Positions 15,814-58,106 of a stretch of 64,000 nt of DNA are shown here, piece after piece (the stretch's first letter is position 1; the number at the start of each line of letters is the position of its first letter). The stretch comes from Astropecten irregularis (lineage: Eukaryota > Echinodermata > Asteroidea > Paxillosida > Astropectinidae), in contig OZ020257.1 of NCBI GenBank assembly GCA_963971285.1, forward strand, positions 11,360,602 to 11,424,601, written 5' to 3'. The translations under genes and the position numbers were made by a program. Below the pieces are notes generated by a model that saw nothing but the letters and a program-made list of their open reading frames with translations, was not told the origin of the DNA and ran no database searches.

Positions 15814-18800
15814 ATGGCACAACTGCCACATTTGTCGCAGCCGCCACAATTGGAAATGAATGGTAACCTGGCAGAGAACTGGAAGAGGTTCAAGCAGAGA
15901 TATACGCTCTATAATATAGCGTCGGGTTTGTCAGAGAAAGACGACAAAACGCAAACATCCACACTTCTCCACATCATAGGAGAACCAGCCCTTGACATCT
16001 ATAATGCATTTACATTTGAGGCTGAAGGAGATAATATGAAGCTGGATGTTGTTCTACAGAAATTTGAAGCATATTGTATGCCCAAGAGAAATGTGACATA
16101 TGAGAGGCATCGATTTTTCACTCGGTCTCAGCAACCTGGTGAATCCATTGACCAGTACGTAACAGAGTTGCGCACCCGCAGCAAATCATGTGAATTTGGG
16201 GACCTTAGGGATTCGCTCATTAAAGATCGAATCATTTGTGGGATTCCTGATGACCGTCTAAGGGAACGGCTCCTGAGGGAAGATAACCTCAACCTAGACA
16301 AGGTTATGCAACTCTGTAGAGCAGCTGAAACTACAAAAGTCCAAGCTAAAGAGCTTGCAGCTACAGGAAAGCCAATAGATGCTGTGAAAACCAAAGAGAA
16401 AATGGGAAAACCAGGAAAGCCACAACATGCAAAGAAGTCATGTGGGAGGTGTGGGCGCACACACGCTTTTGGCGCATGCCCTGCCCATGGAAAGACATGC
16501 TCGAAATGTGGGAAGGCTAACCATTTTGCTCAAAACTGCAAAACTCCAAGCTCATCTGCAACGAAGGGGAACACCAATAAAAACAAGCGTGTTCACAACG
16601 TGAATGAATTCCCTGAGGACACAGAGGAATTCTTTGTGGATGCAGTAGACAGCGCAGAAACCAATGATGAATGGAAAATTCAACTTGATACGAATGGAGT
16701 AAGAATCCCGTACAAGTTAGATACGGGGGCCCAAGCTAATCTACTCCCCGAAAGGCTGATCAAAAGGATGAAGCCTCGACCACAAGTACACCCTAGTAAA
16801 GTTAAAGCTACTGGGTACTCCGGGGCAGACATACCCATCACAGGCCGGTGCATGGTAAAGTTGCAACACAAAGACCAGAACTATCACATAGCATTCCTCA
16901 TCACACCAGGAGATCATCAGCCACTACTTGGTTTGAAATCTTGCGAAAAGCTGAGCCTAGTAAAGAGAATCCTTAACATAAAGAGGATTTCTTCAGATCT
17001 AGAAGAATATGCCGATGTATTCGACGGGCTTGGCTGCCTACCAGGACAGCGACAAATATCAATAAATGAGAATGTCACACCAGTCCAACATGCATGTAGA
17101 AAGGTCCCTTTCCCGTTGCAAGATAAACTACAAGAGGAATTAGACCGCATGGAGCGTCTAGAAGTTATCACAAAGATTGATGAACCAACAGATTGGGTGT
17201 CATCACTTTGCATTGTTGACAAGAAAAATGGCAAATTAAGAGTGTGCCTTGATCCACGAGACCTCAACAAGGCAATAAAACGTGCACACTACAAGCTCCC
17301 ATCTCGAGCTGAAATCACTGCACACTTTGCTGGAGCAAAGATCTTCAGCAAGTTAGATGCATCAAGTGGATTCTGGCAAATACAGTTAGATGAAGCCAGT
17401 TCCAAGCTATGCACATTCATCACACCGTTTGGGAGGTATCGCTTTCTCCGTCTGCCATTCGGAATCAGCAGTGCACCTGAAGTCTACCACAAAATCATCC
17501 ATGATCTCTTCGCAGAAGTAACAGGTGTTAACACGATGATGGATGACATTATCGTCTGGGGATCGACTCGAGAAGAGCATGATCAACGACTCAGACAAGT
17601 ACTAGAGATCGCACGAGGCAACAATCTCAAACTCAACAGAGAAAAGTGTGAGTTTGGAGTAAACAGTCTCACTTTCATAGGTGATGTCATCAGTGACCAA
17701 GGAGTCCAGCCAGATCCTAAGAAAGTCACTGCAATCCTCAATATGGAAAGACCAACAAATCGCAATGATGTTCAGAGATTCATGGGGATGATCAACTACA
17801 TGGGAAAGTTCATCCCAGATCTGTCTTCTAAGTCAGCCCCTCTCCGAAGCCTACTGGATAAGAGAAACCAGTGGACATGGCAAGAAGCACAGGAAAAGGC
17901 CTGGCAACAGCTAAAAGTGAAACTGACAACCGAGCCAGTCCTACACTTCTATGACCCAGCCAAACCATGCAAGCTGTCTGCAGATGCATCACAAAAAGGA
18001 ATTGGTGCAGTCCTACTACAGCAGCACGATGATGCGTGGGCACCAGTGGCATATGCATCTAGAGCCATGACAGAGGCCGAGGAACGATATGCCCAGATAG
18101 AAAAGGAACTGTTGGCAATAACATATGCCTGTGAGCGATTTCATCAGTACATCTATGGACAGCAGGTCGAAGTGGAAACAGACCATAAACAACTCGTACC
18201 ATTGTTCATCAAGTCACTCAGTGACTGCCCCCTGCGAGTCCAACGATTGCTCATCAGAGTACAGCGCTACGACTTGAAAGTGTCGTACACTCCAGGAAAG
18301 TTCATGTACACAGCAGACACACTTTCCAGAGCTGTAGATCCAAAAGCAGAGACAGACAGCTCCAAAGAAGATGACATCAAAGCATATGTAGATGTCATCT
18401 TGACATCAATGCCTGTATCATCAAACAGAAAAGAAGAAATCATCAAGGAAACACGACATGATGAAACTCTTCAAGCACTGACTAAAGTGATACATGAAGG
18501 ATGGCCTGACAACAAGAGCATGTGCCCAGCAACAGTACGAGACTTCTGGATCGTACGTGATGAACTGTCTGAAGCAGGAGGCATGCTGTTCAAAGGCAAC
18601 AAGATCATCATTCCAGCCTCACTACGTACAACCATGCTCAAGAAAATACATGAGGGCCACCTTGGCATTGAAAAGTGCAAGAGAAGAGCCAGAGATGTAA
18701 TGTACTGGCCACACATTAACCAAGATGTATCAAATATGGTGAAGAATTGCAACTCGTGCCTGACATACCAGAGGAAACACAAGGCAGAGAATCTTCAGCC

Positions 18801-18816
18801 ACACCCCGACTCCTAA
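15814..18816 (+). CDS. Gag-Pol polyprotein of the Ty3/gypsy element (through integrase zinc finger)
   Basis: One 1000-residue frame. A gag region (1-205) is followed by two zinc knuckles, C210-C213-H217-C222 with a short CX2CX3HX4C spacing and C229-C232-H237-C242 with the standard spacing. An aspartic protease follows (DTGA, 303-306), then reverse transcriptase with the catalytic pair D577-D578 in MMDDI, RNase H (D724, E765, D790), and the start of integrase with its zinc ligands (H946/H949, C979, C982). The frame stops in TAA at 18814-18816. The integrase core continues in the +1 frame, so pol is broken here by a frameshift or joined by recoding. Gag and pol share one frame, as in several Ty3/gypsy groups. 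Confidence 0.93.
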   Translation: MAQLPHLSQPPQLEMNGNLAENWKRFKQRYTLYNIASGLSEKDDKTQTSTLLHIIGEPALDIYNAFTFEAEGDNMKLDVVLQKFEAYCMPKRNVTYERHRFFTRSQQPGESIDQYVTELRTRSKSCEFGDLRDSLIKDRIICGIPDDRLRERLLREDNLNLDKVMQLCRAAETTKVQAKELAATGKPIDAVKTKEKMGKPGKPQHAKKSCGRCGRTHAFGACPAHGKTCSKCGKANHFAQNCKTPSSSATKGNTNKNKRVHNVNEFPEDTEEFFVDAVDSAETNDEWKIQLDTNGVRIPYKLDTGAQANLLPERLIKRMKPRPQVHPSKVKATGYSGADIPITGRCMVKLQHKDQNYHIAFLITPGDHQPLLGLKSCEKLSLVKRILNIKRISSDLEEYADVFDGLGCLPGQRQISINENVTPVQHACRKVPFPLQDKLQEELDRMERLEVITKIDEPTDWVSSLCIVDKKNGKLRVCLDPRDLNKAIKRAHYKLPSRAEITAHFAGAKIFSKLDASSGFWQIQLDEASSKLCTFITPFGRYRFLRLPFGISSAPEVYHKIIHDLFAEVTGVNTMMDDIIVWGSTREEHDQRLRQVLEIARGNNLKLNREKCEFGVNSLTFIGDVISDQGVQPDPKKVTAILNMERPTNRNDVQRFMGMINYMGKFIPDLSSKSAPLRSLLDKRNQWTWQEAQEKAWQQLKVKLTTEPVLHFYDPAKPCKLSADASQKGIGAVLLQQHDDAWAPVAYASRAMTEAEERYAQIEKELLAITYACERFHQYIYGQQVEVETDHKQLVPLFIKSLSDCPLRVQRLLIRVQRYDLKVSYTPGKFMYTADTLSRAVDPKAETDSSKEDDIKAYVDVILTSMPVSSNRKEEIIKETRHDETLQALTKVIHEGWPDNKSMCPATVRDFWIVRDELSEAGGMLFKGNKIIIPASLRTTMLKKIHEGHLGIEKCKRRARDVMYWPHINQDVSNMVKNCNSCLTYQRKHKAENLQPHPDS

Positions 18817-19774
18817 CCGTGCTTGGGAGAAAGTTGGAGCAGATCTCTTCACAGTCCACGGCAAGAACTACATGGTCATCGTGGACTACTTTTCACAGTT
18901 TATCGAGGTCTGTACACTAAGTAGCACTACCAGCAGCACTGTCATAAAGCATATGAAGTCAGTGTTCTCTCGACAAGGAACGCCTTGTGAAGTATTCAGT
19001 GACAATGGACCACAGTTCGCAAGTGCTGAGTTTAAGCACTTCTCAGCAGATTGGGATTTCATCCACACAACATCCAGTCCACACTATCCACAGTCAAATG
19101 GACTTGTCGAATGTGCCGTGAAGATCATCAAGAACATCATATTGAAGGCAACTCACAGCGGCCAAGATATCTACAAAGCATTGCAGATCTATCGCAGCAC
19201 ACCACTAGAATGCGGACTCTCACCAGCAGAACTGCTGTACAATCGACGCATCAGAGCCAATCTACCCATGGCTGATAGTTTGTTGGACTTCCATCCTCTT
19301 GACACTCAAGCCTTCAGAAAGAGAAAGATGGAACAGAAGAACAAACAAAAGGTGCAGCACAAGAAACAGACAGGGTCATGTGACCTACCACCACTACAAA
19401 TCGGCGACCCAGTCAAACTACGGAGCACAGTCAACAACACCTGGTCTCAAGATGGAATTGTGTCAGCCACACTGCCACATCGCTCATATCTGGTTCAAAC
19501 AGAATCGGGTACCCTCCGCAGGAACCGACATATGCTAAGGAGTGTTCCCGCCCAGCAACAACGCCATGAATCCAGTTTCACACTCTCGGAAACACTAACA
19601 GCGAGTGACACCTCAGCCACTGAGACTACAGCTGCAGGAGACCCTGGAAAACACAGTAATGACAGCAACATGGTTGACCCACCTGTCACATCTTCAAAGA
19701 AAGCCAGCACAGTATCACCCATGACAACCAGGAGTGGTCGTGTCGTGAAACCACCTACAAAACTGGACCTGTGA
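18809..19774 (+). CDS. Integrase core and C-terminal part of the Ty3/gypsy Pol
   Basis: This frame is +1 to the upstream gag-pol frame and overlaps its end by a few codons. The first ATG is at 18872, but this is probably not an independent start. Numbered from that ATG, the catalytic triad is D5, D44 and E80 with the D-35-E spacing, in contexts VDYFSQF, SDNGPQF and NGLVECA. A C-terminal region follows with a basic stretch and a GxxVKLRS-like segment, with no chromodomain visible. The catalytic residues are intact, so a single frame change separates it from a complete pol. Confidence 0.85.
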   Translation, partial: TPNRAWEKVGADLFTVHGKNYMVIVDYFSQFIEVCTLSSTTSSTVIKHMKSVFSRQGTPCEVFSDNGPQFASAEFKHFSADWDFIHTTSSPHYPQSNGLVECAVKIIKNIILKATHSGQDIYKALQIYRSTPLECGLSPAELLYNRRIRANLPMADSLLDFHPLDTQAFRKRKMEQKNKQKVQHKKQTGSCDLPPLQIGDPVKLRSTVNNTWSQDGIVSATLPHRSYLVQTESGTLRRNRHMLRSVPAQQQRHESSFTLSETLTASDTSATETTAAGDPGKHSNDSNMVDPPVTSSKKASTVSPMTTRSGRVVKPPTKLDL

Positions 19775-20747: not shown

Positions 20748-21510
20748 ATTCAATTCAATTCAATTCAATTCATTTATTCATCATGATGACATGAACATTG
20801 TCTTCCCGGTGATAAAACGTTAAAATGACATACGTATACAAAGGTAAAATGTAACATCACAGTAAATACAAATAAAACTTCATATTCACAGCAAATATAA
20901 AGTTATAAAATTATGACATCACAGTAAAACACATACAACTTCCAAAACACAAATAAAATATTAAATTGTGAGATTACAGTTAAAACACATAGAATTTCCC
21001 AAAACTAATCAGAAACGCACAGCATAAGTCAAGATACATGTAAATGCCCTTATTATTCCTCCCACCCAAGAACCCAACCCCAGAAAATGAGTTGTTATAT
21101 TGTTTACTGGCTGATGGCAATAAAGAATCCCTAAAACGGTTTGTTTTTACTCGAGGATATCTAATTCTACCCGGCCTATTAAAGGTAACACTGGAATGTA
21201 AGGGGTGATCCTCGTCGGAAATAATGGTCAGGAATTTCTTTTCCATAGCACTATTGCACAATGAATCTAGATGTTTGACATCAACACCAACCAACCTACT
21301 CGCAGATTTGATAATTCGATTATATTTTTGAATATTTTCAGAAGACAACCCATTGAACCATGCCACACTACAAAATGTTAAAATAGACTGAATAGCTGCC
21401 TGATAAAACAAATATAAAATGTCATTATGAACATTAAATGATTTCATGCGCCTAAGAAAATACAAACGTTGGTTGCACTTAGCGTAGACTTTTCCAGTAT
21501 TACACTTCCA
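20748..21510 (-). pseudogene. Non-LTR retrotransposon 3' part (L2/CR1-like), copy A
   Basis: On the minus strand an open frame (21465 down to 20980) has the C-terminal layout of L2/CR1-type ORF2 proteins: YFLRRMKSF, an SILTFCSVAWF segment and a tail with RVKTNRFRDSLLPSA. It is followed by a 3' end with GATGAATAAA and a (GAATT)n tail at about 20748-20770. The 5' side is cut by the duplication junction at 21510. No reverse transcriptase core remains here. Confidence 0.8.
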
Positions 21511-24301
21511 AGTACGTTTGGCTTATATAGCCGTGTTCCCATTTGACTTATGGAACTCGTTTGGCCGAGTTCATGCTAGTATAGATTCCCTCGTACACTA
21601 TGTAGAGTTGTAAGGATCGATCTTCTAACTTCAATGCGAATTTTACTGAACCCCTGTCAATAGCAAAACTGCTTTAAATCTGGTAAGGAATGTTCGGAAT
21701 TTCACTTTTGAGCACGGCACACACACATAGTTCAAGTTCGGTGTCAGGTAGCTATAGTATAGTTGTCTAAATGAATATAACCCTATGAACCGGAACCACA
21801 TTATGGAATACCGTCTCAATAGAGTACTACTCGATTCAATCCAGAACTGTTTTTGTTCAAGGACGTTTATACCTGTCGCTGGATGTTTGACAACTGTCAT
21901 AATGGTATCCGAGTGTAGGCCTACTGTACGTGTACAGACGGTCCACACAACACGACACAGCATAATAGCTCAGGATGGGATGATGCACGACACCCCTGGG
22001 CTGGAATAATGACGGTAGGCCTATTATTGATAGAAACACATGTTCATATCATATCACAGCCCCTGCTACTGCTAGCATGATGGGACTAAATGGGAACATC
22101 CCATCATAGTTTCCATCCTTGCCAACATAATATGTTGGCATGTTATGCTGGCTAATAACATAGCATAACAAACAGGTGAATATAACATATACAGAACGAG
22201 CGGGAGTCGCATCAGCACAGCCGCTTGTTATTTTCATTGCTGATTCTGTTCTTCGTATTTCCCAATAATTCCCAACAGCGGTTAGAATCCAACAACTGTT
22301 CAGTTTTGGTTTGTGAAAGGTGTAGCTTAATTGGGCCAGTCCTAAGTTAAGGTTAAGCAAAATTATGCCGATGAGTAGAGATAGGCACTTACCTCTCAAT
22401 TCAGGCTGCTTGTGAACTAATTAAGCCGACTTCCACATCGTCTTTCACTTGACTTTTTAGGATCACATTATAGCGCCCTCTGTCAGAAAAATACCAACTT
22501 TAATACGAAGCAACGCCAGTGTTCGATCTCAGTGTATGGCGCCCTCACCCTATACGAAGCTCTGACTAAGGCTTTGTTAGACTAGTTTGGCTATGGCTGA
22601 CAATTGCACACTGACCTATGAAAGGTTGCTCCAGTCACTACCGTAGCCACGGGCGTATTTGTAATCTCATGCATGCCACACGGCCAAGGTTTGCTTTAGG
22701 ATGTAAGGTCATAGCGCCACCGCGCGTTCCGAGGAGTGAGCATGCAGCCGCGACAGACGATTGCAGATTCTTGATCTTTGCCGAAAAATAAAGATGTGCA
22801 CTTCGGACGAAGTTGATGAAAGTTGGTCTCTAATCTGTTCGTCTTTTGGAGGCAGAATTTCCCTATTTCCTCATCTTTGTCCCTAGCTAAGATACATTTC
22901 GGTGGTGATGATCTGAGCTGAAAGTTTGGTCGCTCGTTTGGAGGCCCGGAAACACGTCCACGATTCACAATAGCCTTACTGATGTTGACTTCTAATGAAT
23001 GCACCTTATTCACTTCGTATCCATATCGTCACCTTCCTTGTACTGAAAGTACTAAAGAGAAGGAACTTAGTAATCATATTCCAATAACACAAAATTTGCT
23101 TTCTCTGTTAGAACAGAACTGCAAACTGGCCTGGCTTATCAGTACCACCTGCTATCTGATTTCACTGGCCAATGGCTAAAATAGAATGTAACGGGTCTGC
23201 CTGGCCAATAAACTGTTTAACCCTGTTAATTTTGACCTCTTTTAAGGATTCGTACTTCAGTGCTTCCCCCGCACCTTGACGATTTTCAACTTGTCAACGA
23301 TTATAGGTTTATTCTTTATCAACAAAGTTAAGTCAATCCGCTCTAGGTTATCGAGCACTGATCAGCTAAGTTGTATGTCTCAATGATGTAACTGCTAATC
23401 TGTCTGAATTTCCTTGTTTTTCTGAATTTGATCTCTTCACTGGGGATTATGTATAAATACCTCTTCTAAGAAATCTTGTTTGTTGGATCCAATTGCAACT
23501 TATCTGTTGGTTGATAACTTGGACGTTTTGTTCAATTCAATTCAATTCAATTCTTTTATTCATCATGATGGCATGAAAATTGTCTTCCCGGTGATAAAAC
23601 GTTAAATTGACATACGTATACAAAGGTAAAATGTAACATCACAGTAAATACAAATAAATTTTCACATTCACATCAAATATAAAGTTATAAAGTTATGACA
23701 TCACAGTAAAACACATACAGCTTCCAAAACACAAGTTAAATATTAAATTGTGAGATTACAGTTAATACACATAGAATTTCCCAAAACTAATCAGAAACGC
23801 ACAGCATAAGTCAAGATACATGTAAATGCCCTTATTATTCCTCCCACCCAAGAAACCAGGCCCACCCTATCTAGAAAATGAGTTGTTATATTGTTTACTG
23901 GCTGATGGCAAGAAAGAATCCCTAAAACGATTTGTTTTTACTCGAGGATATCTAATTCTACCCGACCTATTAAAGGTAACACTGGAATGTAAGGGGTGAT
24001 CCTCGTCGGAAATAATGGTCAGGAATGTCTTTTCCATAGCACTATTGCACAATGAATCTAGATGTTTGACATCAACACCAACCAACCTACTCGCAGATTT
24101 GATAATTCGATTATATTTTTGAATATTTTAAGAAGACAACCCACTGAACCATGCCACACTACAAAATGTTAAAATAGACTGAATAGCTGCCTGATAAAAC
24201 AAATATAAAATGTCATTATGAACATTAAATGATTTCATGCGCCTAAGAAAATACAAACGTTGGTTGCACTTAGCATAGACTTTTCCAGTATTACACTTCC
24301 A
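21511..24301. repeat. Tandem duplication, copy B (uninterrupted)
   Basis: This copy follows copy A directly, with the junction at TTACACTTCCA/AGTACGTTTGG, and ends at 24301 where the same TTACACTTCCA is followed by GTTTAG. It keeps the unoccupied site of the LTR element: CCAAT occurs once at 23081-23085. It shares the short frames at 22049-22399 and 22696-23013 with copy A. I do not recognise their products. Confidence 0.85.
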
Positions 24302-24400
24302 GTTTAGTTTATCATAAATGTGTACACCAAGATATTTAATGCTCAGATACAATGTCAACATAACATTCAACAGCAACAACATCATGACATGTAACGACTC
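23533..24400 (-). pseudogene. Non-LTR retrotransposon 3' part (L2/CR1-like), copy B
   Basis: The same element as in copy A, but extending past the duplicated unit to about 24400 with additional upstream coding sequence (YLGVHIYDKLNW, the end of the reverse transcriptase region). The (GAATT)n tail is at 23533-23553. An in-frame stop and a frame break split the frame. It is 5'-truncated where it meets the plus-strand element at about 24400-24430. Because copy B holds the longer version, copy A's 5' break is the duplication boundary. Confidence 0.8.
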
Positions 24401-24570
24401 ATGACTGCTCCTGTTTTTGTTACCTTTCCGTACCCAAATCATGAATGCCTCCTTAGAATCAGGCTGTTTTCCATCCCTTTGGAAGACAGCAGTTGTTCTC
24501 CCTCTCCTGAAAAAAAAAACAGGATTGGAGGCCAAGGTTGAAAACTATCGTCCAGTAAGCAACCTACAAT

Positions 24571-25396: not shown

Positions 25397-26640
25397 TTAA
25401 GCTCTGCTTTTGACACACTAGATCACAATATCCTTTTGCACACATGTTATAACCACAAAAAATGTGGATAACAACAGAGTAATTTATTTCATACTGCTGA
25501 CATGGGCGCAGCCATCTTAGAACAACCACATACTCTCTAATAACGGTCACAAGAGGGCGCTATAACGAAATCGCCAGACATCAAGTTACTACAACACATT
25601 AAAAACAAAGTTCGGAGTCAGTGGTAAAGTACTCCAACGATTTCAGTCATACTTATCTGGGAGATCTCAACGTGTTTTGGTAAATGGTAAATATTGTCTG
25701 ATAAGCACGACCTTCAAAGGGGCGTTCCACAAGGTTCCTGTTTAGGCCCATTGTTATTTATTCTATATACCAGTGAATTGTTTGACATTGTAAAAGCTCA
25801 TAATCTTCATGTTCATTGTTATGCTGATGACACACAGCTATACCTCTCATCTTCACCTGATGTAGCTGGGAGTCAAGCATCTGCTTTGTCTGCCATGGGA
25901 TCATGTATTAGGGATCTACGTTCCTGGATGTCTGTAAGGGGGTTAATTTTAAACGATAGCAAATCCGAACTTTTAGTTGTTGGCACTCGTCAGCAGTAAT
26001 TAGCTAATAAAGTTAACATAGATGGGATACAGGTTGGGGATACGGTGGTCTGCCCTGTGACTCTTGCCCGGAACTTGGGAGCGTGGTTTGATGTTAACTT
26101 ATCTATGAATGACCATGTGATTAAAACGTACAATTCAGCTTTTTATTATTATTAACACGTGTTAGTACTGAAATACTTGTCCATGTATTCATTAAATCCA
26201 AGCTGGATTATTGTAATTGCTTACTGTATGGTATAATATGATTTTATCATTTGTGCATTTAAACCGTCTTCAACGTGTTCAAGGCTTGTATGTACAAGTT
26301 CTGTCATGTCACGCTTGTCTTTATTGATCTTCACTGGCTCCCAATTAAGTTTAGAATTGTTTTTTTTTAAGATTGTTTTATTTGTTTAATTACTCATAAT
26401 GACTAAGTGTCCTGGATATCTGACTCGGCTTTTTACTGTTCGATCCTTATCTCATTATCGTCTTCGTAGTTTTAATCAGAACAATCCTTAAACCTCCTAC
26501 CACTCATAGCATAACTTCCTTAGGTGTTCAGGCTTTATACTACTACTATTGCAAAAAGTCTCAATTGTTTCAAGACGCGGCTCAAAACACATTACATCTT
26601 TTAAAGCTGCATTAATCTGTAAGTTTTAATATTATTTGTT

Positions 26641-30174: not shown

Positions 30175-30540
30175 AGGATTTGTAACATACGCAAACAGAA
30201 ATGTTCACATATTTACGTAGAACTTTCGGGGTATGAAGATGGTGCTGATAGAAACATACCGTTAACATATTTCTGCCTGAAATGATGCATTTATCCAGAA
30301 ATAAGTAAAACAAAGACCGAAAAGTTTTCATCTTGTGCCGAGATCACTCCATTCCTTATGTTTTATAAAAAAAAATCAGTCTGGTTTTCGCTATTTTAGC
30401 GTGACTCAGATGTCTGATTGAGCTCAAATTTTCACAGGTTTTTCATTTTATATACCTGTACATTCTTGATCAGACAAAGTGTGAGTACTGCTGTTCTGTG
30501 ACCTTTACCAATCATGTATTATACCTTTAAACTGAAAGTA
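30175..30540 (-). mobile_element. TTAA MITE family, diverged copy
   Basis: In reverse orientation it contains AACAGAAATGTTCACA, GGTATGAAGATGGTG, GAAACATACCGTTAACA, ATTTATCCAGAAATAAGTAA and a right end ATTATACCT-TTAA. The left terminal repeat is eroded. Confidence 0.65.
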
Positions 30541-32200
30541 CACCAAAAGGAAGATACTTCGTTCAGAATCGACCACAAGAAATATCACAAGTAGACAAAC
30601 TGGGTGAAAATACAATTTCGTTGTCAGTGTGCCAGTAATTTAATGAAGGACAAAACCTTTATTTCATTACGATGTTTGAAAAAAGATACTTAAAAATGAT
30701 CACCTATCAAACAACACATTGCAAAAGGAGAATGTGAATTTTGCAATATTTCGGTTTTCATTGCTTTCCTTTTTCTTTTCTTTTTTCCTTTTCTTTCAAT
30801 AACTATATTACTCAATCGATGATTGTATTTTTTTTTGCCTTATTGTCTTAATAATGTTGTTCTTCCTAGCTCCATGACATGGTATTGTTTTGCTTTTGTT
30901 AGTTTTATTCATTTATTTTATTAATTTTTCGAGGGTAATTTTGTTTACATGTGACTAGTATGCATGTTTGTTTGTTTTTGAGGGTATTTAGGCTTGTTGC
31001 CAAGTAAGATATGATACAAAATTTAACAATTTGATTTCTTTTAATGGGTTCTTTTGGAAAGTGAGGCCACACATAATGGGGGACCGGGCATGATGTATAT
31101 TATCATCCGAGTACAAGCAGAAACAGCGGGTAGTCCGTAGCTGTCAGACCACGCAACATTGTACGGCTAATTCTTGTCAGTTCAACGACCCTTTTGATCC
31201 AACCGATTAAAAACTGTAACTCCACAGAGCCCCCCGAAATCTATCCGAGGTCACTTGAGTTTAAATCATCGCGTATGTTCCAAATAAAACCCTAATCAGT
31301 CTGTGCATCTCAATTCAGATGTATTAAATTTTTAAGAGCCTTAAACTTGTGTATTTTCGTTGTAAATTCGCGGGGCTAGATCGCCGGTGAGGCCCGGGAC
31401 CATGGCCCGGGGTAAGTTTGGGCGGGCCGCGTACCGCTAAATTGGGTGCTTGGGGAATTGTCAGACATTGACCGGGGCGGGTACAACAACCGTTGCCGCT
31501 CCAGCTGGGCAGCACACGGCCCAGCTTCCCCCTGGAGCTACGGTGCTGGGGTCGGCTCTCCGTGCGCCTCCCCGCGGTTACCCATTATCATTAGCGTTAG
31601 ATCGGATTAATAGTCAGACTAAAATAGGGATTAAAGTTTCAATTGGTGAGTCTACAGGCTCAGTAGTGTATAAAGACCAAAAATTGTATATGTACATTTT
31701 GTCAATTTCCTACCGAGAATTTATGTGACGGTTTGGCCCCTACGGTCAAACGGCTATATTTCTATAGGTCTATGACCTTGCGTTCAATTACAAAATAATT
31801 CTAATGATCACATTCATTTGATTTGCTTCCTCTCTTTCACAGGAATGAATCATACTTAGATTACATGAGCAAAGCACTGTGATTTGTCCGGGTAAAGATG
31901 TCTGTATAAGACGCAAACAGGAATAATGTGCCAGCAAAATAGCCCAGTGGAAGATCGTGTGGCATGATTACCAAAGTTAAGCAACGTCGACCGTGGAACA
32001 GTACTTGGAGGGGAGAACAATCATGACTAATTAATGACGATGTTCGTGGGATGTTGATTTCTGGGAATAAAATTCCGTACCATTAAAAAAAAAAAAACAT
32101 TCAAGAAGGAATAGTCACCGTAAGACCAATGAAATCATCAAACAACCACAAGGGAAAATGACTTAATTTAAAGTCGTTGAAAAGTGAACAAAGAAAAATT
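30541..32200. other. Gene-free interval with a CpG-rich block
   Basis: 31360-31610 is strongly GC- and CpG-rich (GGCCCGGGACCATGGCCCGG and CCTCCCCGCGG), in contrast to the AT-rich flanks, and matches no repeat in the window. It could be a regulatory island. The open frame across it (31450-31728) has no recognisable domain. Nothing else is identifiable. Confidence 0.35.
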
Positions 32201-32272
32201 GACTGGAGCGGGATTCGAACCGGCGACCTCCTGAATACCGTACAGGCGCTCTACCAACTGAGCCATCCAGCC
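32201..32272 (-). tRNA. tRNA-like sequence, probably a SINE head or tRNA pseudogene
   Basis: The minus strand folds as a 72-nt near-cloverleaf. It has a 7-bp acceptor stem with one G-U, D arm GCTC-AGTTGGTA-GAGC, and a T arm with loop TTCGAAT (one stem mismatch). Both pol III boxes are present (TGGCTCAGTTGG and GGTTCGAATCC). The anticodon arm is defective: position 33 is C, not U, and the closing pair is U-U. The nominal anticodon GGT would be Thr. No CCA or T-run terminator follows. The 3' extension (AATTTTTCTTTGTTCAC) fits a SINE body. Confidence 0.6.
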
Positions 32273-33930
32273 CTACGTTGGTAGTGACCCCAATAGTCAA
32301 TTATCTTCGTTTGAAACCACGCACACACCGCCATAACCCAAGGATCGTTTCCATGATATACGCAGCAATGCTGCAACCTGGGAACGGTACATGGAGGATC
32401 ACTCAAAGAGGATACGGCTTTTTAATTAAGACTAATGAAATAGATAATTTATGCAGACAATGGTTGCAAGAATTGAAGATTATAGAATATCTAAGATTAT
32501 AGTGAATCAAATCTATAGGACCAAGTTTTATAGGGGAAAACGATGGAACATTTCCATCGTATCAACTTAATCTGCATACATTCACAGTATAGTTACTCAA
32601 GGTTATTCAAGGTTTTGGAAGTCTTGTGCGTTAATAAACCCAGCCTTCCCTGAACTTAAATCCTGCAAGGATCGAAACACGTCAGGCCTTCCAACTCCAA
32701 ACATTTTATGTGTTATATCATATAGAGTTAGAAGTTTCCCTCGCAAGTGAATGTCACACAGCGAGTATATCAAAGATAAATAGGCTAATACGATGAGAGC
32801 AACGGGTTTGGCGATACGGTCAAGAAGGAGATGCGTACCGACAGTGGGTAGATGTGAGATGGGTCCTCGGATGTCCGCGGCGCCAGTAAGGGCTCCTGAC
32901 GACGCCGTGAGCGGTGCCGAGCTGCCCCCGGCTTGGGGGTAATGCCTGGATGATAAAATGCCACTGGAGTTTCTCGAAGAACCTTCCGTTATTAAACAGC
33001 GAGAAGGGGTGTACCGTGCCATTTGTATACCCAGTGACATCGAGAGGGTTTAAAGATGAAGCCTCAACGAGATGGTCAAGATGAAGCCATCTCAACGATA
33101 TGGCTTGCATCTTGATATCCCTACACATGCTATCACAATGGGCATTCCCTGAGCAATAGTGTTAAAGGTAGACTCAACAAAATTTTACAAGAACTTGAAT
33201 TTGATTTGTTGCATTCTTGTAGTAGGATAATGGTGAGAGCATTAGGCCTATACTGTCTCTAAGACGATATGATTTGAGAAGCATATGCAGACTCTGGTTC
33301 AGGTTATTGTTTTCAAAGATCAAAGACACCCAAGCTCTCCAATCGGCCCTGTTTTGACAATAGGATGTACCTCGAAAAATCATGATTTGAGAAAAGCGGC
33401 TTTGGCTGTCTAATACCATGTTTGGCAAAAGGGTGTATAGGCCTGTGCCATCATTGCTCATGTGGAATGCATTGTCTTAGCAAAAGGATGTAAATCCATG
33501 TTACGCTAACTCACTGCCAATGATCTGTAGGGCACTGAAGGGACGGTGAATCTCGTCTTACGCAATTAATATTGCGTGTTTCTGTTTTAGCAAAGAGAGG
33601 TATCTGCTTGAAATGGCGGTGAATGACCTTAATGAGATAGCACATTCTAGCTTTAAGACGATGCATCGTATAAACGTGGGAGATCTCCTAGTGGAAAAGG
33701 CGCCCTCACGTTGCCCAGACCCGTTTTTATCTCAAAAAGTGACAAAATGAGTTACACCTTTTGCCAACAAGGTACGCAATGGCGTAACTTAAGGACACAG
33801 TGTACCAACTCAATGCCCTCTATTGCTCAGCAAATATAAGTTCAGTAACGGATGTCTTTTGGTGAGGGAAAAATGTAGTGGAAAGGATGAGTTTTTCAAC
33901 TTTCGCTCAGAAACATTCACAACACGCAAT
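32273..33930. other. Gene-free interval
   Basis: It contains a short repeat unit at about 32655-32705 (AATCCTGCAAGGATCGAAAC) shared with 28445 and 41350. The open frame at 32603-33040 runs through this repeat and has no recognisable domain. I see no other feature. Confidence 0.4.
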
Positions 33931-34060
33931 GGGGTCGATTTCACCTCATTCGAACTTACTATCAAACGTGTGAGTTACTGCAGCCACACGTAGAACACGA
34001 TGAGTTACCCTCCGTAAATTGAGTATGATCGATCGTATAGGGATTCGTGAAATCGACTCC
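33931..34060. mobile_element. Foldback element with GTCGATTTCAC ends (type 1)
   Basis: It starts GGGGTCGATTTCACC and ends GGATTCGTGAAATCGACTCC. The interior holds partly complementary CGAACTTACTATC and GAGTATGATCGATCG segments. It abuts the next hairpin element with only a T between the two units. Confidence 0.65.
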
Positions 34061-34061
34061 T

Positions 34062-34210
34062 GGGGCCGATTTCACTAACGCTTTGCGATCATCGTAAAGC
34101 CCAAATCCATCGCTAAACAGAAAATCGATCGCTACTTTGCGTAGCAATTTTCCGTTTAGCGATGGATTTGGGCTTTACGATGATCGCAAAGTGTTAGTGA
34201 AATCGGCCCC
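34062..34210. mobile_element. Near-perfect 149-bp palindrome (type 2 foldback)
   Basis: The left arm from GGGGCCGATTTCACTAACGC and the right arm ending GTTAGTGAAATCGGCCCC are complementary over about 60 bp with one or two mismatches, through AAAGCCCAAATCCATCGC. The short centre contains a second hairpin, GCTAC-TTTGC-GTAGC. The whole unit can form one long hairpin. No coding capacity. A diverged copy is at 35800-35947. Confidence 0.85.
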
Positions 34211-34211
34211 T

Positions 34212-35054
34212 GGGGCCCATTTCACTAACGCTTTTTGATAAAACGGAAAATCCATCGCAAAGTAGCGACCGATTTTAAAGACGGATTTCACTAAAACTTT
34301 GCGATGAATTTCTCATCGCAATGGGTCCACTTAGCGATGAATATCTTGCGATGACCATTTAGTGCCCGCAAAGCTATAAATTCATCGCAAACAAATTACG
34401 TCAAGGTGATAAGTCACGTCATTTTAACTAATATTCGTTTTTCTGTATCGTGTTAATAATGAAATAGGAATGTCTATACATCTATTGTGCATAAACAATG
34501 CTCGGGCTTTACACGGAGAGCGGGTTTTCATGGATAAAGCAAGGTTTTGTTGCAGTTCGCTCAGTTGCCACGGACCGTATGGAAAAAGTGACGTCCTCAT
34601 GGTCCTCGAAATCGCGAACATAGAAGGACCAAATGTTAAGTGGCGATGGCCTAGCTACTACACATAAAGCCGGCCTATGGGATTTCGTGTACAAAACTTA
34701 AAGTGAAACGAATTTCTCCTAAACCTTCACTGCACTGTTCTGGCACATCCAAAAATGGGTCTATTATAAACAACTGTAAGTTTTCTCTGTCGTATGAAGT
34801 AGTCATGCCGGAAAATGTGCAAATCAATGGTGAAAAGTGACATTGACGTCGCGTAATTTAAAGTAAAATGTCAAAGGTCACGTTTTTAGCCTCGAACAAA
34901 ATGTTTATTTTCGTTTTTATGCCATCGCAATTGCGATGACTTTAGTGAAACGTAAAATCAACGCCATCGCAAGTGCGATGGATTTGCAGTTAGCCATCGC
35001 ATCGCTAGCTCAATAGCGATGATCGCAAAACAGGACTTTAGTGAAATCGACCCC
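34212..35054. mobile_element. 843-bp relative of the foldback family (type 3)
   Basis: It starts GGGGCCCATTTCACTAACGC and ends TTTAGTGAAATCGACCCC. Near both ends it repeats ATCGCAA and GCGATG words that can pair (CCATCGCAATTGCGATGAC near 34920). The middle (34390-34900) is unique within the window and non-coding as far as I can see. It may be a longer parent of the short hairpins. Confidence 0.6.
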
Positions 35055-35799
35055 TGGTCCTTTTCACAAAAAAATGATTGCGATTTCATCATCGCCTCTA
35101 AAGCAAGGTCAATCTCTCACGGTGATCTTGGTGAGGCTGCTTGGTTTAGTCATAAGAAACGACATGCCCTATAGGACTGCTTGGGAGTGGCGGACCTGTG
35201 CAATAGCGGAAACTTTGACTTGATCTTCTTATAGTCCACTTATAGAAATAATATCAGGCAACACCGAGGAGTCCGAGATTAAAGGGGGAGGCATGCATTG
35301 CGACTCCGACAGCCTCCCGTGGGATGCAAGTACAATCATGGGTGTCGATCCCGGGTGGGGGTGGGATGGGGCGGGTGGGGGATATATCCCCCCAATATAT
35401 GGGGGAATGGTGTGTATATCATTTTTAAATGCTCTAAAGTGCGACTTTTTGACTCTGTTTTGATTAAAAAGTCCCTGTTTTGGTAGGGTGGGGGGGGGGG
35501 TGTATTCCACCTCCCACAGTCTTCCCGCTCGGTCGCTTCGCTCCATCGCATAGGACACATAATTACATCACCAATCATCTCCCCAACCATGACAAGAAAT
35601 GGACACCTTTGGATGCAAGACTATTTCCCGATGATGAAAGCCACTGACAAGTTGATCCGAAAATGGTTGGAGATTCTGGGCCCACAGGATCCCACCTCGA
35701 GTTATGAAGGATAGCCCATCGTATCCTACGGAGGACCGCAATGCAACACACGTCCTACGATTGATTACGATGAGTTTGGTGAAAATCGACCCGGCAGGC
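35055..35799. other. Gene-free interval between foldback elements
   Basis: It holds a G-rich stretch (35341-35400, with runs such as GGGTGGGGGTGGGATGGGG) and a G run at 35491. It ends in a fragment of the type 1 foldback (CGTCCTACGATTGATTACG ... GGTGAAAATCGACCC) next to the type 2 copy. No gene seen. Confidence 0.4.
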
Positions 35800-35947
35800 T
35801 GCGATTTCACAAATGTTTTGAGACCATCGCTAAAGCCCAAATCCATTGCTAAACGCAAATTTGCTACGCAAAGTAGAGATCGATTTTCCGTTTAGCGATG
35901 GATTTGGGCCTAAGCGGTGATCGCAAAACGTTAGTGAATTCGGCCCC
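35800..35947. mobile_element. Second copy of the type 2 palindrome
   Basis: The arms GCGATTTCACAAATGTTTTG and ACGTTAGTGAATTCGGCCCC enclose AAAGCCCAAATCCATTGC and GCGATGGATTTGGGCC, matching 34062-34210 with scattered changes. Confidence 0.75.
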
Positions 35948-38900
35948 ATTGCACTTATAGAGAAGACCCTCTCATCAAAATGTCATAATTTTCCATCTGG
36001 AAAGAAATTCGAAAATCCTATGTTTATTGCGTGTAGGCCTACATGTACATTGTATTTCATTGAGAGTAACAGGACTACATTGTATCATATTTCAAGTTCG
36101 CAGCAAGTCAGCGTGACAGCAAACACACAACTTTCAGGAGAATCCGAATAATAAAATCCGGAATAAGAGGACCAATTGCCGCAGGGGCAACTCAGACTCC
36201 GATATAGGATTGCAAAACGGAGCCCTTTAACCGGAGCTGAAAAGTAGCTTTATCTGAAGAATCTTTTACGAGGACATTGCACAGTCGATGATTTGAAGAA
36301 TAACTTTAGTCCTGCTGAGAAGTACAAAAAAATCATCGCGACTCGAGGGTCGTAGTGAGATGGGTAATTGATGTGGGGGCACCTGTCATGATTCAGACGC
36401 GTCTAATGCAAGGAAGGAAGAAACAAATATTAGAAGTCCATTACCGCATCCATTCCACCCTCGTGCCTACTTGGCCAAGAAAAAAAAAGGCTTTCCTCTT
36501 TTTTCCCCCTCTCTCTCTTTCACTTCAGTCTTCTGAGCTGCTTGCTTAGCTACGGGGGGAAAAGAGCCCTCCATCATGCACTCATGATCAATATTTATTC
36601 GCTAGTCCAAATTGACATGTAAACCGCCGTAACGCGGAAGTAAAATGGTTTTGATCGGCCTCGCTACGGAATTACCGTCCTGTCATTAATTCTGCTGTCG
36701 GATCTTATGTCCCAACTTCTTATTAGCCGAAGGGGGGCCCCGGTATTCTGGGTGAGGTGCTCAGCAGCTCAGCGCGCGCCGGCCGATCCAACCAACCGGG
36801 CCTGGGGGCGATCACGCCGGGGCTGCATCAAGCGGCCCACAGACGTCTTACCTTACGCCGGCCCGGGATATCGTGTAACTGATTAATGTCTTAATTTCCC
36901 AGCTAGTCTTTTATCTAATTAGAGCCAAGTCTGAAGTCATGTTTTCCCCGAGTCGATTATTGATATTCCCGCTAGCCTCGTTTCGCCTTGCGACGGGAAA
37001 AGCACTTTGGCAAATTTTCTGTCCTTGTTACAACACCATAAATCAGCCATCAGCGAGAAATAAGGGGGCAGCGTCAAAATCTTAGGGCACTCTCCGACTG
37101 AAGAACTCTTCTGACTTGTCTTGTTAGATTTCGGAATGCCTGTCACTACCCCTGCTCGTCCGATGTCTCCTCGGAAGGAAGAGAAAGAAAAAAAATACCC
37201 AGACTTGTTGAATGCATCTTGAGCACTCCGCCTATACCGTTTGTTAGCGCTGCGGAAAGTTTGAAGTTCTTGTAAATTTTACAGTTGACATGCAGTGTTA
37301 TTGTTCAAGCACCGGGACTGAGTCAAATATTTCCACGTGACTTGTTTGCAAGTTTTCTGCCGAGATAACAACGTGTAAACACGGGCCGGTGGGTGTGAAG
37401 ACCGAGCACTTGACAGAAACGGGAGTTGAACCGGAGACCATTGATAATAAGGCTTGTATACAGGTACAGTTTTCTCCAATATACTGACGCGTACAACTTC
37501 ACACGCGTGTTCGGTACTATCAACTGCCCCGACGCACATCTAAGCAAGTGGTGAGATTCGAACCCAATACCGTCAAGATGTCCTTGGCATCGACTCTATT
37601 ACGCCGGATATAGAGTCGGCTTATAATTCAAATCCGGGCCCATGTTAAACAACGGAAATGCATTACAATAATTTGTCCAATACGGAATAGTTTAGTGAAT
37701 AATGTAACTAATGTGAATTCATGTAATTGTATTGTTTCATACTAATTATATACATTTGCCAAAATGCCAACAAAAGGAAACCAAACTTTGTCAAACAGGT
37801 AATTAGTGTAATGACTTTTGCAGGTAAAGGGAAACCATGCATAGTAGTTTGGCTAATAATTATTAATATACCTTTTTACTCGTATAAATAATGGTCTCCC
37901 TCGTCAAGCCTGTTAAACCCGAATGACATTATCCAGAGAGTTACTAATTTGCGTCATATTTTTAATCGACTTAGAGACCGCCGTATATTTACATGAAATT
38001 AAAACAATCAAATGGACACAGGTGACTTTGTTTAGAAATTAGAGAGTCGAGTAGCTGAAAAAGAGAATACACAAACATTAATTAATGAATAAATGTTTGC
38101 AACATTATATATATGCAGTCTAATTAATCATTTATGCAATTGTTTTAGTTTCTTTCTTTATAACTTAATTGTATTTTAACTACAGGGAAATGACTTCATT
38201 ACACGCACTTTTGTTGAAGTCACTCAGGGACAAAAACGTTCAAATATCCCGAGTCTGAAAGTGAATACACGATTTAATTTCGGAAATGAAGGGAAAAACC
38301 ATTTGTGCTTTTAGGAGAGGCGATTCCCTCCCATTCCTAGTAATTGAATACTCAATTCATTAATTTTTCCCATTTTCAGAGACAGAGCGAGAGAGAATGG
38401 AAATACAGAAGGGGTCCATCACATACGTTACAGCATGATGTTTCCTGTTGCCTATCCCAGACGATATTAATATGACACAAATCGTTGGCAGTGAAATACA
38501 TCTCAGCTTGGGTTCCTATATACGGCCCAAATGCAGCGCATCAATTTCCCATAGCTTTCCGGCGTATTAATGATGGCCTATTTTTTTCTTTCTCTGTCTT
38601 CTTCCTTTTTCTGTTTTGATTTTTTTTTTGGTCATGAAGCAGATAGATGGGGCTGATCATGACGCCTCATTTCCCTTTAGTTGTACAATCAGAGAGACTC
38701 ATTACGCTCCAAACAGGCAATAATATCCCTCCCTCCCTGTCTGGCTACCACTCCAGACTAGCCAGCCACTCCGAGCCTGGACTGCTGAAGGGGGATCAAG
38801 AGCGAAAGAGAGAGGAGTTACTCATATAACCCAATCGTCAATGATCATCACAATGATTGCAATACCTAATGATACAATTATAATGATTACTGTCGGTATT

Positions 38901-39305
38901 TCTGGAGCATAAATTCAAAGCATAATCTGTTGCAGAACAAATTGGGAGAATAATATAGTTGGTGATTTAATTCAGAAATTTGGATTTGTGGGCATTTTGG
39001 AAAGGTTAAGTATGCGCATAATTAACAACGCGAGTATATTTTTACGAGCTCTGTGAAGGTCGTGTTTTATGTCGTTGTTAATCACGACCCAGTCATGAGG
39101 AAAGCGCACAGCTGATGACTGCGTCCACTAGGCCAATGGTTTGAAGCATTTATTTCATTTGTTACCGAGGATGGTAGTTATGTTGTGTGTTTTTTGTTAC
39201 AAGTTTGCATATGTGAACTTCATTTGAATGCTGTATCGAAAAACGGTATTCGAGAACCAGTATTCGGTATATTCGGTTTCCGTTCGTCCAGCGACGTATA
39301 CATTG
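35948..39305. other. Gene-free interval with GC-rich blocks
   Basis: 36580-36880 is GC-rich (GGCCTGGGGGCGATCACGCC, GCGCGCCGGCCG) and free of the window's repeats, so it is a candidate regulatory block. 38330-38560 is similar, though less GC-rich. The rest is AT-rich. Two tRNA-like remnants at 37415-37610 are listed separately. No supported ORF. Confidence 0.35.
37415..37610 (-). repeat. Two tRNA-derived SINE heads in the same orientation
   Basis: On the minus strand two B-box-like segments occur 120 bp apart: GGTTCAACTCC (about 37424-37434) and GGTTCGAATCT (about 37555-37565). Each sits in T-arm-like context, but neither forms a full cloverleaf. They look like decayed tRNA-derived SINEs. Confidence 0.45.
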
Positions 39306-39455
39306 GTCGATTTCACGAAACACTATATGATTAATCTTAACATTGAGATGTCACTGTTACCATAGTAATTTATATTGTGACGTCACACTTTGCTTAGCAA
39401 TTAAGATTGATTCACGGATTTAAGATCAATCTTAGTGCTTCGTGAAATTGGTCCC
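39306..39455. mobile_element. Foldback element with GTCGATTTCAC end (type 4)
   Basis: The arms GGTCGATTTCACGAAACACT and ATCTTAGTGCTTCGTGAAAT are inverted copies, continuing through GATTAATCTTAA and TTAAGATCAATC. The short middle contains GACGTCAC. This type differs internally from types 1-3 but has the same terminal word. Confidence 0.75.
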
Positions 39456-41789: not shown

Positions 41790-42197
41790 TTAAAAGGTAA
41801 TATCACACGTTGGTTTGTGTCAAAGAAATACAAATTCAAGGGCACAGTTACGCGTAGACACGTACTCAGACCTGGAGATAATTATGATCTTATTGCTGGA
41901 TATAGTACTTCCATATACGAAAAAATTTCATACATTTGAGTCCCACACGGTGTCCACTTATTGAATAAACAGTGAAAACGCCCACAGTATTTTTTAAATC
42001 TTTTCTTCCATTATTTTTGATCTTCCGAAGATCAAAATTGTTTTGAGTTCTAATAAATACAGCATTTCAGGCAGAAGAAATTGAACGGTATGATTCTACC
42101 ATCACCATCTTCGTACCCTGTAAGTTAGGCCTATATAGGTAAATCTGTGGACATTTCTGTTTCGGCATGCTACCAAAGAATGGTGTAGTACCTTTAA
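41790..42197 (+). mobile_element. TTAA MITE family with an internal foreign segment
   Basis: The ends are TTAA-AAGGTAATATCACACG and ACCAAAGAATGGTGTAGTACC-TTAA. The middle contains a segment (41852-41925: CTCAGACCTGG, AGTACTTCCATAT) shared with 11101-11162, suggesting an insertion or a recombinant copy. Confidence 0.7.
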
Positions 42198-46239: not shown

Positions 46240-46599
46240 TTAAAGGTAATATCATGCTTTTTGTTGTCAAAGAATTACAGATTGATTGGCAAAATCAAGG
46301 AAGATACAGAAACACTATCTGTACAAATTTCAGCCCAATACGGTGAGAAAACAGTGAAAAACTGCCACAGTATTTCGTAGGTTTTTCTCTTTTATTTTAG
46401 ATTCTTAAACGATAAAAAAAAAAATTGGTTACTTGTTTTACTCTTTTCTTGATTAATACAGCATTTCAGACAGAAGATTTTTAACGGTATGTTTCTACAA
46501 TGATCTCAGTCCATTTTTATACCATGTAAGTTATACGTAAATCGGTGAACATTTCTGTTTTGGTTTCCTACCAAAGGATGATACAACATGTACCTTTAA
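46240..46599 (+). mobile_element. TTAA-flanked MITE, full-length copy
   Basis: TTAA-AGGTAATATCATGCTTTT at the left and ACCAAAGGATGATACAACATGTACCT-style right end followed by TTAA. The interior matches the 4048 copy throughout. Confidence 0.8.
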
Positions 46600-47459: not shown

Positions 47460-47764
47460 TTAAAGGGCATGTGCAACGTTGGTAAAGGTTACATAACAGC
47501 ACACACACTTTATGCATGTACATGAAATAATAAGCCTGTAAAAAGTTTGAGCTCAATCGGACATTTGAGTCCCGAGAAAATAGCGAAAACCCGACACAAT
47601 GTTTCTTATAAAACATAAAGGATTTTTAATCTTGCCAAGATCACAATGTTTTTGTGATATATTTTAACGGTATGTTTCTTTCAGCACCATCTTCATACCC
47701 TAAAAGTTAAAGAATGTGAACATTTTAGTTTCGGTTTGTTACCAATGTTGTGCATGCCCTTTAA
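47460..47764. mobile_element. Related TTAA MITE subfamily with different terminal sequence
   Basis: The ends are TTAA-AGGGCATGTGCAACGTTGGT and ACCAATGTTGTGCATGCCCT-TTAA, perfect TTAA on both sides. The terminal sequence differs from the main family, but the interior shares GGTATGTTTCT, CACCATCTTCATACCCT and GTGAACATTT. This marks a subfamily with its own ends. Confidence 0.8.
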
Positions 47765-51329: not shown

Positions 51330-52005
51330 AAGGTGTGTGTGGTGATAATAAGATCACGGTACTTGGCCCGAGCGAGCGGCGAGATACGCCCACCGTGGCC
51401 CGTGATTGACAGGCGAGTCTGTCTGTAATACGCTGGCCGAGCACAACGGGGAGCCCGTTGCTTTATCAACAAGCGCGCCCGCCTACATTGGTGGGCCCCG
51501 GTGATGCCATGTCGTCAAGCGATTGGTACAGTGTCTTTTAGTCTCACTTGGCAGGTAGGGGAGTTCAGGCCCGTGCATCACGCTGACGCTGCCCTCCCTC
51601 GGCCCAACGGTTGGTTAAGTACCTGATCACCTCCAGCCTTCTTCTTGAAATTGAAAAGAGAGGCAATTCGTGGACGTGTGAAGTTGGTGCGTTGCTCTCC
51701 GATGCCCTCCGACATACACTCACATTCTGACAATTAGCCACATCAGAAGAGGAGCAAGTGTACGCCATGAACATGCTGGCAAATCCGCTGCATTTTACTC
51801 ACTCATCATAATCACCGGACCTCTTTCATCGGTCACCAAGCTTAACACCTCGGCCCGTTCGTTCTCTAAACCTGAACTAAAAACAAATAGATAAGTCAGC
51901 AGATTTGCCGTTTGTCGTCTCTACCTTTAATACGAGGATTCCTGATTGCCGGTTGTTTGGACTTTTTTTTGACCGAGGTGTTTGCTCAAGGACTTTGAAG
52001 TCGTC
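51330..52005 (+). promoter_or_regulatory. Proximal upstream region of FoxB
   Basis: GC-rich DNA at 51360-51560 precedes the gene. It holds an exact PBX-MEIS decamer TGATTGACAG (51403-51412) and GATA-type words (GATAATAAGATCA at about 51343-51355). No TATA box is obvious near the start codon. The 5' UTR must lie in the last few hundred bases, but the transcription start cannot be placed. Confidence 0.45.
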
Positions 52006-53004
52006 ATGCCTCGACCAGCTAGGAGCACGTACAGTGACGCCAAGCCCCCGTACTCTTACATCTCCCTGACGGCGATGGCAATCCAGAACTCCGGTGAGAA
52101 GATGCTTCCCCTGAGTGATATCTACAAGTTCATCATGGACCGCTTTCCCTACTACCGTAAGAACACCCAGAGATGGCAGAATTCTCTCCGGCACAATCTG
52201 TCCTTCAATGACTGTTTCATCAAGATTCCACGCCGACCAGACCGCCCGGGCAAAGGCAGCTACTGGGCCCTACATCCCCTCAGTGCTGACATGTTCGAGA
52301 ACGGTAGTTTCCTGAGACGTCGGAAGAGATTCAAGTCCCCCAGGATTACTGCCATCGACCACAATCTCCAGATCAAGCAGATTGACTCTGCCAAGATCTT
52401 CCAGGAGCAGGCGAAGATTGGACTGCCGCCGTTTGCCGCTCTTGGGTCCCTGTCACCGTACGCTATGCCCGTACCGAGCATGGCCATGACATGTTGCACG
52501 GCCAGCTCGCCTACCTATCCATCCAAACACAGTCTCATCCCATCTACCAGTCCCACCATGAAACAAGCTTTTACCATCGAGAACATCATCTCACCGGACT
52601 TCAAACCGTCCGCAGCCAAGCCTGCACCGCAGACGGCCAAGAGCGCCAGCCCAGCACAGCCGGCATTATCAACCACGACGTGCAGTTCAACCTTACCGAG
52701 TCCGACGTTTACGAGCAAGGGGGCATGGCCCTCGATCGCCTCGGTGGCCGGCCGGTGTGTCCCTCCCTTGTCTCCGGAAGAGCGGGCGTACCTGAGCGAG
52801 TACACGGCCCACTGCAGAACAATCTTACCGCCGTCCTTTCCACCGACACCTGCGTTCCCCCTACCGATAAAACCCACCGTTCACGGCCTGGGCATAACCT
52901 CACACGCCGGTGCAGCTCTGCCGTCACTATCCACATCCGGACCCATCCCAGTTGTGAATGACGGTGCGCTCTTATCAAAGTGCAATAGGCCAACACTTGT
53001 ATAG
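52006..53004 (+). CDS. FoxB forkhead transcription factor
   Basis: A 332-residue, single-exon gene, as is usual for FoxB. The start at 52006 gives the family N-terminus MPRP...[15 protein letters not shown]; a longer frame begins with TTG at 51982 and is not used. The forkhead DNA-binding domain covers about residues 13-110, with the recognition-helix segment [17 protein letters not shown] (57-73) and wing sequence PGKGSYW, ending in the basic RRRKRFK. An eh1-like Groucho-binding motif, FTIENIIS, is at 189-196. The linker and C-terminus are rich in Ser, Pro, Ala and Thr. It should bind forkhead sites in the nucleus and, through eh1, repress. In other animals FoxB acts in neural and ectodermal patterning. 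The stop is TAG (53002-53004). Confidence 0.96.
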
Positions 53005-58060: not shown

Positions 58061-58106
58061 TTGTTGCCACGGCTCATTTTTGGAAAATGAATTGACCGCA
58101 TGTCAC

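Follow-up and report, generated by a model that had tools for sequence, protein, structure and literature searches.

How do short inverted-repeat elements with different interiors come to lie end to end, with a single triplet between them? The question is raised by a cluster in a 64-kb window (the whole stretch of DNA that was analysed), in which the original prediction had placed three abutting foldback units at 33931-34060, 34062-34210 and 34212-35054. Our analysis bears out these coordinates and the termini of the three units. The boundaries can be set one base further in, which gives elements of the form GGGYCGATTTCAC...GTGAAATCGRCCC with a single CTG between neighbours; unit 1 thus extends over 33931-34060 less one base of supposed target duplication per side. 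All frequency statements refer to this one window, which holds the following features.

33929-33931, no strand: triplet flanking the cluster on its left, ATG, one base off the expected CTG
33932-34059, plus strand: unit 1, type 1 MITE (BLAST pieces to 59264-59306, 59350-59409 and 61442-61501 at 79-81%; ends aligned)
34060-34062, no strand: CTG common to units 1 and 2, taken to be a target site duplication under the NuwaI rule (PMC4482050)
34063-34209, plus strand: unit 2, type 2 MITE, a near-perfect hairpin (arms with 67 identical positions, 4 mismatches and 1 gap)
34210-34212, no strand: CTG common to units 2 and 3 (flank tabulation and inverted-pair scan)
34213-35053, plus strand: unit 3, long and type 2-like, its ends complex and rich in CATCGC, without a coding match; possible composite
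35054-35056, no strand: CTG flanking unit 3 on the right (flank tabulation and inverted-pair scan)
35057-35100, plus strand: start of a weakly terminus-like sequence, GTCCTTTTCACAAA, immediately beyond unit 3
35688-35792, minus strand: type 1 remnant that lacks its left part and ends GTGAAAATCGACCC (BLAST and end alignment)
35795-35797, no strand: CAG flanking the second type 2 copy on the left (right-side counterpart CAT, 35947-35949)
35798-35946, minus strand: second type 2 MITE, matching unit 2 at 88% when inverted; its hairpin is the older one
39304-39454 (pattern span 39303-39455), plus strand: type 3 relative, isolated
59265-59411 (pattern span 59264-59412), plus strand: type 1 MITE, isolated
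61440-61504, plus strand: partial type 1 copy, lying in a duplication in which 61440-61732 matches 59348-59640 at 94%

Units 1-3, the second type 2 copy and the type 3 and type 1 copies are non-autonomous inverted-repeat elements (MITEs): they are short, have inverted ends, gave no Pfam transposase in the 4 of 6 frames scanned over 34200-35800, and occur in several dispersed copies (near 33.9, 34.1, 35.8, 39.3, 59.3 and 61.5 kb of the window). Five two-ended units span 128-151 bp; unit 3, at 841 bp, is longer than the usual MITE. Part of the segment holding the partial type 1 copy (61440-61732) duplicates, 2 kb away, a piece beside the 59-kb element, and the segment as a whole is bracketed by an exact 44-bp direct repeat (61400-61443 and 61811-61854).

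The window has a GC content of 40.7% and resembles animal DNA in its gene and repeat content (LTR-retroelement, forkhead and aquaporin sequences); the LTR-retroelement reading frames, at 15814-19774, are Gypsy-like by domain order. Retroelement-like fragments were also seen at 20980-21522 and 24131-24544 (minus strand) and at 25691-25996 (plus strand); two similar pieces match ALKBH8_N (Pfam) and one matches RVT_1. An uninterrupted forkhead reading frame of 340 aa occupies 51982-53004; its best solved-structure match is HNF-3-beta, and it looks FoxB-like. An aquaporin-family (MIP) gene is present in two pieces on the minus strand (1622-1882 and 2779-3090), and a tRNA gene lies at 32200-32272, also on the minus strand (Rfam, 52.8 bits). 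Other repeats include a tandem duplication at 54869-55220 (182-bp unit, 1.9 copies, 83% matches) and an inverted-repeat element at 60955-61395, presumably mariner-like, with arms at 61002-61097/61247-61342 and ends like CAGGTTGTCCCAAAAAAACGCAAC...GGGACACCCTGTA. Among the 25 of 69 repeat pairs listed there is another dispersed family (4089-4387, 30179-30432, 42053-42143, 46416-46592, 47542-47708, 57098-57430 and 58146-58467), some of whose copies are inverted relative to others; 57098-58467 holds a large inverted pair.

Ends and relatedness of the elements

The units had been predicted to share one terminal word and to differ in their interiors, and both statements hold in part. Within units 1-3, exact copies of the 11-letter word GTCGATTTCAC are confined to three termini, the two of unit 1 and the right-hand one of unit 3; unit 2 carries the variant GCCGATTTCAC and the left end of unit 3 the variant GCCCATTTCAC. 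When 13 of the 14 known ends were aligned (the partial 61-kb copy, a duplicate of the 59-kb one, was omitted), all 13 could be aligned over one terminal core with at most 1 mismatch or 1 inserted base, followed by a looser subterminal motif. As judged from this alignment, types 1-3 have one terminal core in common. Across the window, there are 10 exact matches to the core CGATTTCAC, and the pattern GGGGYCGATTTCAC with up to 3 mismatches has 19 matches, compared to a mean of 6.48 and a largest count of 16 in 100 shuffles. The interiors do differ, and about 35 bp at the ends of types 1 and 2 are related (score 31 versus shuffle maxima of 29 and 30; 0/2000 as good in each case), with the common sequence GGGYCGATTTCAC.AA...TGCGATC.ATCGTA. 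The ends of type 3 are tied to the others less firmly: 1/2000 shuffles were as good against type 2, and 7/2000 against type 1.

The foldback nature of the units is likewise uneven. Unit 2 folds at -78.4 kcal/mol versus a shuffle mean of -17.5 (z -22.46; 0/200 shuffles as good), and the second type 2 copy reaches a z of -8.6, whereas unit 1 folds essentially by its terminal repeats alone (z -2.6; 4/200 shuffles as good). The arms have diverged at 1 of 57 first stem positions in unit 2 versus 12 of 69 aligned positions in the second type 2 copy, so the two copies were probably inserted at different times. They are not adjacent, and they match better in opposite orientation.

Unit 3 is the least regular of the three. 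Its left 65 bp are a rearranged type 2 fragment, and its right end pairs slightly better with a second, internal terminus at 34283 (score 30) than with the outer one (score 26), each with 0/2000 shuffles as good. A reading of the unit as one long foldback was rejected, as the whole-arm match is barely beyond chance (1/1000 shuffles as good), and the rearranged fragment and the pairing suggest that unit 3 may be a composite and not one element. This matters for the possibility, raised with the original prediction, that all units are one family split by later insertions. Such a history is possible for unit 3; unit 1 is complete at both ends, and the same two ends are found in its 59264 homologue, which argues against it for units 1 and 2.

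The type 1 remnant had been said to abut the second type 2 copy at 35800. The two are close neighbours, but 5 bases (GGCAG) intervene: on the reverse strand, the remnant matches 59267-59384 at 72% over 35688-35790 and terminates with GACCC at 35792. A further unit beginning at 35057 was also considered and dropped, as its similarity to the terminus is not significant (132/2000 and 87/2000 shuffles as good).

Junction register and adjacency

The junction between units 1 and 2 is CTCC-T-GGGG (34057-34065) and that between units 2 and 3 is CCCC-T-GGGG (34207-34215). In the CWG register, CCCCTGGGG reads as end-CTG-end, with the duplication common to both neighbours. At both exact junctions and at the right flank of unit 3, CTG follows CTC or CCC, and the sequence to its right opens with G. 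We tabulated 32 duplication models (4 registers by 8 lengths) over the 6 two-ended units. The best were 1 bp in register 5 (4/6 positions), 3 bp in register 4 (11/18) and 5 bp in register 3 (17/30); at 8 bp, all four models stay at 10-15 of 48 positions. As the three best models have one palindromic centre, C-C-W-G-G, with the same W and different lengths, the sequence alone does not settle the length of the duplication.

In the CWG register, the flanks are CTG/CTG for units 2 and 3, ATG/CTG for unit 1 and CAG/CAT for the second type 2 copy, and the isolated units follow the CWG rule only on the left (59265, CAG/GGT) or not at all (39304, CAT/CCG); identical CTG thus stands on both sides in 2 of the 6. 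Window-wide, there are 23 GGG...CCC inverted pairs (overlapping registers and cross-pairs counted), 3 of them with identical CWG flanks (34063-34209, 34063-35053 and 34213-35053), versus 0 in 30 shuffled windows. All three lie in the cluster, so the perfect CTG pairs are not independent of the adjacency. GGG stands directly outside YCGATTTCAC in 8 of the 13 ends in this register; the other five have GAG (u1R, c59L), TGG (c39L), GCT (u5L) or a shifted arrangement (c39R). Three type 1 ends (the 59-kb copy, its 61-kb duplicate and the remnant) read CCGGGTCG, with CCGGG, instead of CWGGGTCG, and the junction of the remnant with the type 2 copy has two extra bases, GG. An extended CC..GG target was not evident at the outer flanks, where 2 of 6 bases fit a C/G preference at the only three informative sites (the block of units 1-3, the second type 2 copy and the 59-kb copy). 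The outer flanks of the whole cluster, GCAATG (33926-33931) and CATTGC (35947-35952), are exact inverted copies of each other, which we judge to be a coincidence, perhaps due to chance.

The abutting itself was compared with chance within the window. The window has three gaps of at most 5 bp, namely the two exact junctions and the 5-base gap next to the remnant. When eight elements of these sizes were placed at random in 200000 trials, at least one such gap arose in 954, at least two in 3 and at least three in 0. The adjacency in the 64-kb window is non-random, and abutting is commoner than expected. Insertion confined to particular targets was also considered: for 8 insertions into the 1866 CWG sites of the window, at least two shared junctions have P 0.0003 and at least three arose in 0/100000 trials; for the 72 CCWGG sites, the corresponding values are 0.144 and 0.020. 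CWG specificity is therefore too weak for the observed sharing of junctions, and an additional preference for element ends would be needed.

Assignment to a superfamily and rival explanations

The original prediction knew of no named family with this terminus. In the papers searched, no transposon family with the exact word was found either, and PMC9179366 mentions neither Nuwa nor CWG, while CWG in PMC12595863 stands for author initials; but GGG ends combined with a CWG duplication are a described pattern, that of NuwaI. In PMC4482050, NuwaI is placed in the PIF/Harbinger (PHIS) group, with ends that usually begin GGG, a CWG TSD and a TIR of 12-61 bp; it is reported there from animals only (fish, a beetle, a crustacean, a mollusc and an anthozoan), and most autonomous candidates encode a DDE transposase and a Myb/SANT protein. 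Members of PIF/Harbinger have a 9-bp insertion preference that comprises the TSD and 3 bp per side (PMC2836001). This equals the length of CCC-CTG-GGG; element ends would be prime targets if the preference were CCC-CWG-GGG. Membership of the cluster elements in NuwaI is probable. No transposase was found in the 25 ORFs scanned among the 172 stop-to-stop frames of at least 70 aa besides the long Gypsy-like ones, nor in a Pfam scan of 34200-35800 in 4 of 6 frames. Exact junction, terminus or type 2 interior patterns had 0 or 1 match in viral contigs and 0 or 3 in bacterial and archaeal genomes, collections that hold no animal genomes, so that absence there is weakly informative. The four loci concerned were taken as chance, as none has a facing inverted partner with at most 2 mismatches (at one of them, the neighbour is direct).

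We consider it moderately probable that the cluster consists of MITEs of one superfamily, moved in trans, most probably by a PIF/Harbinger transposase of the NuwaI kind that duplicates CWG, and that the stacking came about by insertion into flanking CWG. Each element, GGGYCGATTTCAC...GTGAAATCGRCCC, would on insertion leave two flanking copies of CWG, and each copy would again be an intact target. A later element entering such a copy would duplicate the triplet anew and yield element-CTG-element-CTG-element, with nothing else gained or lost. The second element would spare the first, and the two would then have one CWG in common, resulting in clean, non-nested stacking. What we infer is which transposase acted, that the duplication is 3 bp long and that element ends are preferred; this preference might reflect an extended target, CCC-CWG-GGG, or a transposase already bound to resident ends, and we regard these as equal possibilities. 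Beyond mobility, the elements probably have no function, and nothing pointed to a host role. A more general proposal, which we offer tentatively as possible rather than probable, is that in animals a PIF/Harbinger-like transposase favours the 9-bp palindrome formed by its own inserted ends (CCC-CWG-GGG), giving rise to stacked, uninterrupted arrays of unrelated members with single shared triplets. Such a self-seeding and non-nested process would resemble the plant SaTar arrays in its outcome but would operate by ordinary cut and paste.

Other origins have to be weighed against insertion into flanking CWG. The original prediction offered two routes to the adjacency, insertion of elements at or next to each other's ends and copying from one another. 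The former is the best reading of the data, given that the complete units 1 and 2 are of different families, that the type 2 copies differ in age and that each exact junction has one CTG. The latter is not supported by the neighbours, which are different sequences and so were not made by tandem duplication or slippage. Besides tandem duplication, one split element and a plain 1-bp spacer were weighed and not preferred. Local rearrangement, replication slippage or template switching could in principle have made the array from one foldback, and this would suit the scrambled interior of unit 3 and the coral precedent, in which tandem arrays of full MITEs are put down to slippage (PMC2872659). We give this little credence, as neighbouring units differ in family and size (130, 149, 843, about 105 and about 150 bp), and the type 2 copies differ in age, match better inverted and are not adjacent. 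Comparably improbable is that the whole block 33931-35948 moved as one ISL2EU-type composite with an AT duplication, bounded on the left by the outer end of unit 1 and on the right by that of the second type 2 copy. The outer flanks, GCAAT|GGGG...CCCC|ATTGC, fit the ISL2EU target A|AT|T exactly, with a 6-bp inverted flank (rule from PMC4482050). However, AT fits only these outer ends, and across registers 3-6 not one of the 6 two-ended units carries it on both sides; the inner junctions are CCCC-T-GGGG without AT; and the two ends of the block are not of one family. For a pairwise comparison of about 10 ends, we estimate that a 6-bp coincidence would arise roughly 1 time in 100.

Mutator, hAT and P elements have duplications of about 7-11 bp, and Tourist elements, or PIF/Harbinger in the narrow sense, have TWA. 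TWA flanks were found at no unit in registers 3-6, and the 7- and 8-bp models match 6-15 of 42 or 48 positions. That the units are MITEs of another superfamily (e.g., hAT, P, Mutator or piggyBac), with the duplication obscured by age and the CTG fortuitous, is unlikely, if less so than the two histories above. The isolated copies without CWG on both sides and the CCGGG at some ends would be explained by it. However, 4-8 bp models in registers 4-6 match at most 0.31 of positions; register 3 gives higher fractions (0.38 at 4 bp, 0.57 at 5 bp and 0.33 at 6 bp) with models that include the same CWG centre; and identical CTG flanks are present in two units.

Comparison with known systems

The elements resemble NuwaI, which comprises animal DNA transposons with the GGG ends, CWG duplication and TIR length given above (PMC4482050). 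The difference is that only non-autonomous copies are seen here, with no transposase in the frames scanned, and that CWG is perfect only within the cluster. mPing and Tourist-like MITEs are similar in their PIF/Harbinger affiliation, 3-bp duplication and 9-bp insertion preference, but duplicate TAA/TTA and not CWG (PMC2836001). The inverted-repeat structure also recalls the foldback elements Galileo and Tetris; the present units, in contrast, are short MITE-like hairpins in which no 7-8 bp duplication was found. Galileo and Tetris duplicate 7-8 bp. Nested MITEs in rice and maize were reportedly the subject of a study by Jiang and Wessler in 2001, cited in PMC2836001, so stacking like that seen here may already be on record.

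If the reading of a shared CTG holds genome-wide, it offers a simple route from short transposons to clean composite arrays. It would also suggest a possible origin of composite elements and satellite DNA, and target duplications could be inferred cheaply from junctions alone. If it fails, the locus is an ordinary MITE cluster whose families can be added to repeat libraries.

SaTar elements, non-autonomous MULEs of guayule and rice, form linear end-to-end arrays of unrelated elements in which none interrupts another (PMC5907723); the authors in 2018 called this non-nested multimer architecture previously unreported. Those arrays are tied to microsatellites, of Mutator type and from plants, whereas the junctions here consist only of CTG, with no microsatellite. 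The coral CMITEs are full-length MITEs lying side by side in a marine animal, but they are piggyBac-like (TTAA), and their arrays are made of closely similar copies and attributed to slippage (PMC2872659), in contrast to the different families and the CTG of the present cluster. The plant SaTar and coral CMITE arrays are thus the closest in arrangement, and the noteworthy feature here is stacking on a shared triplet.
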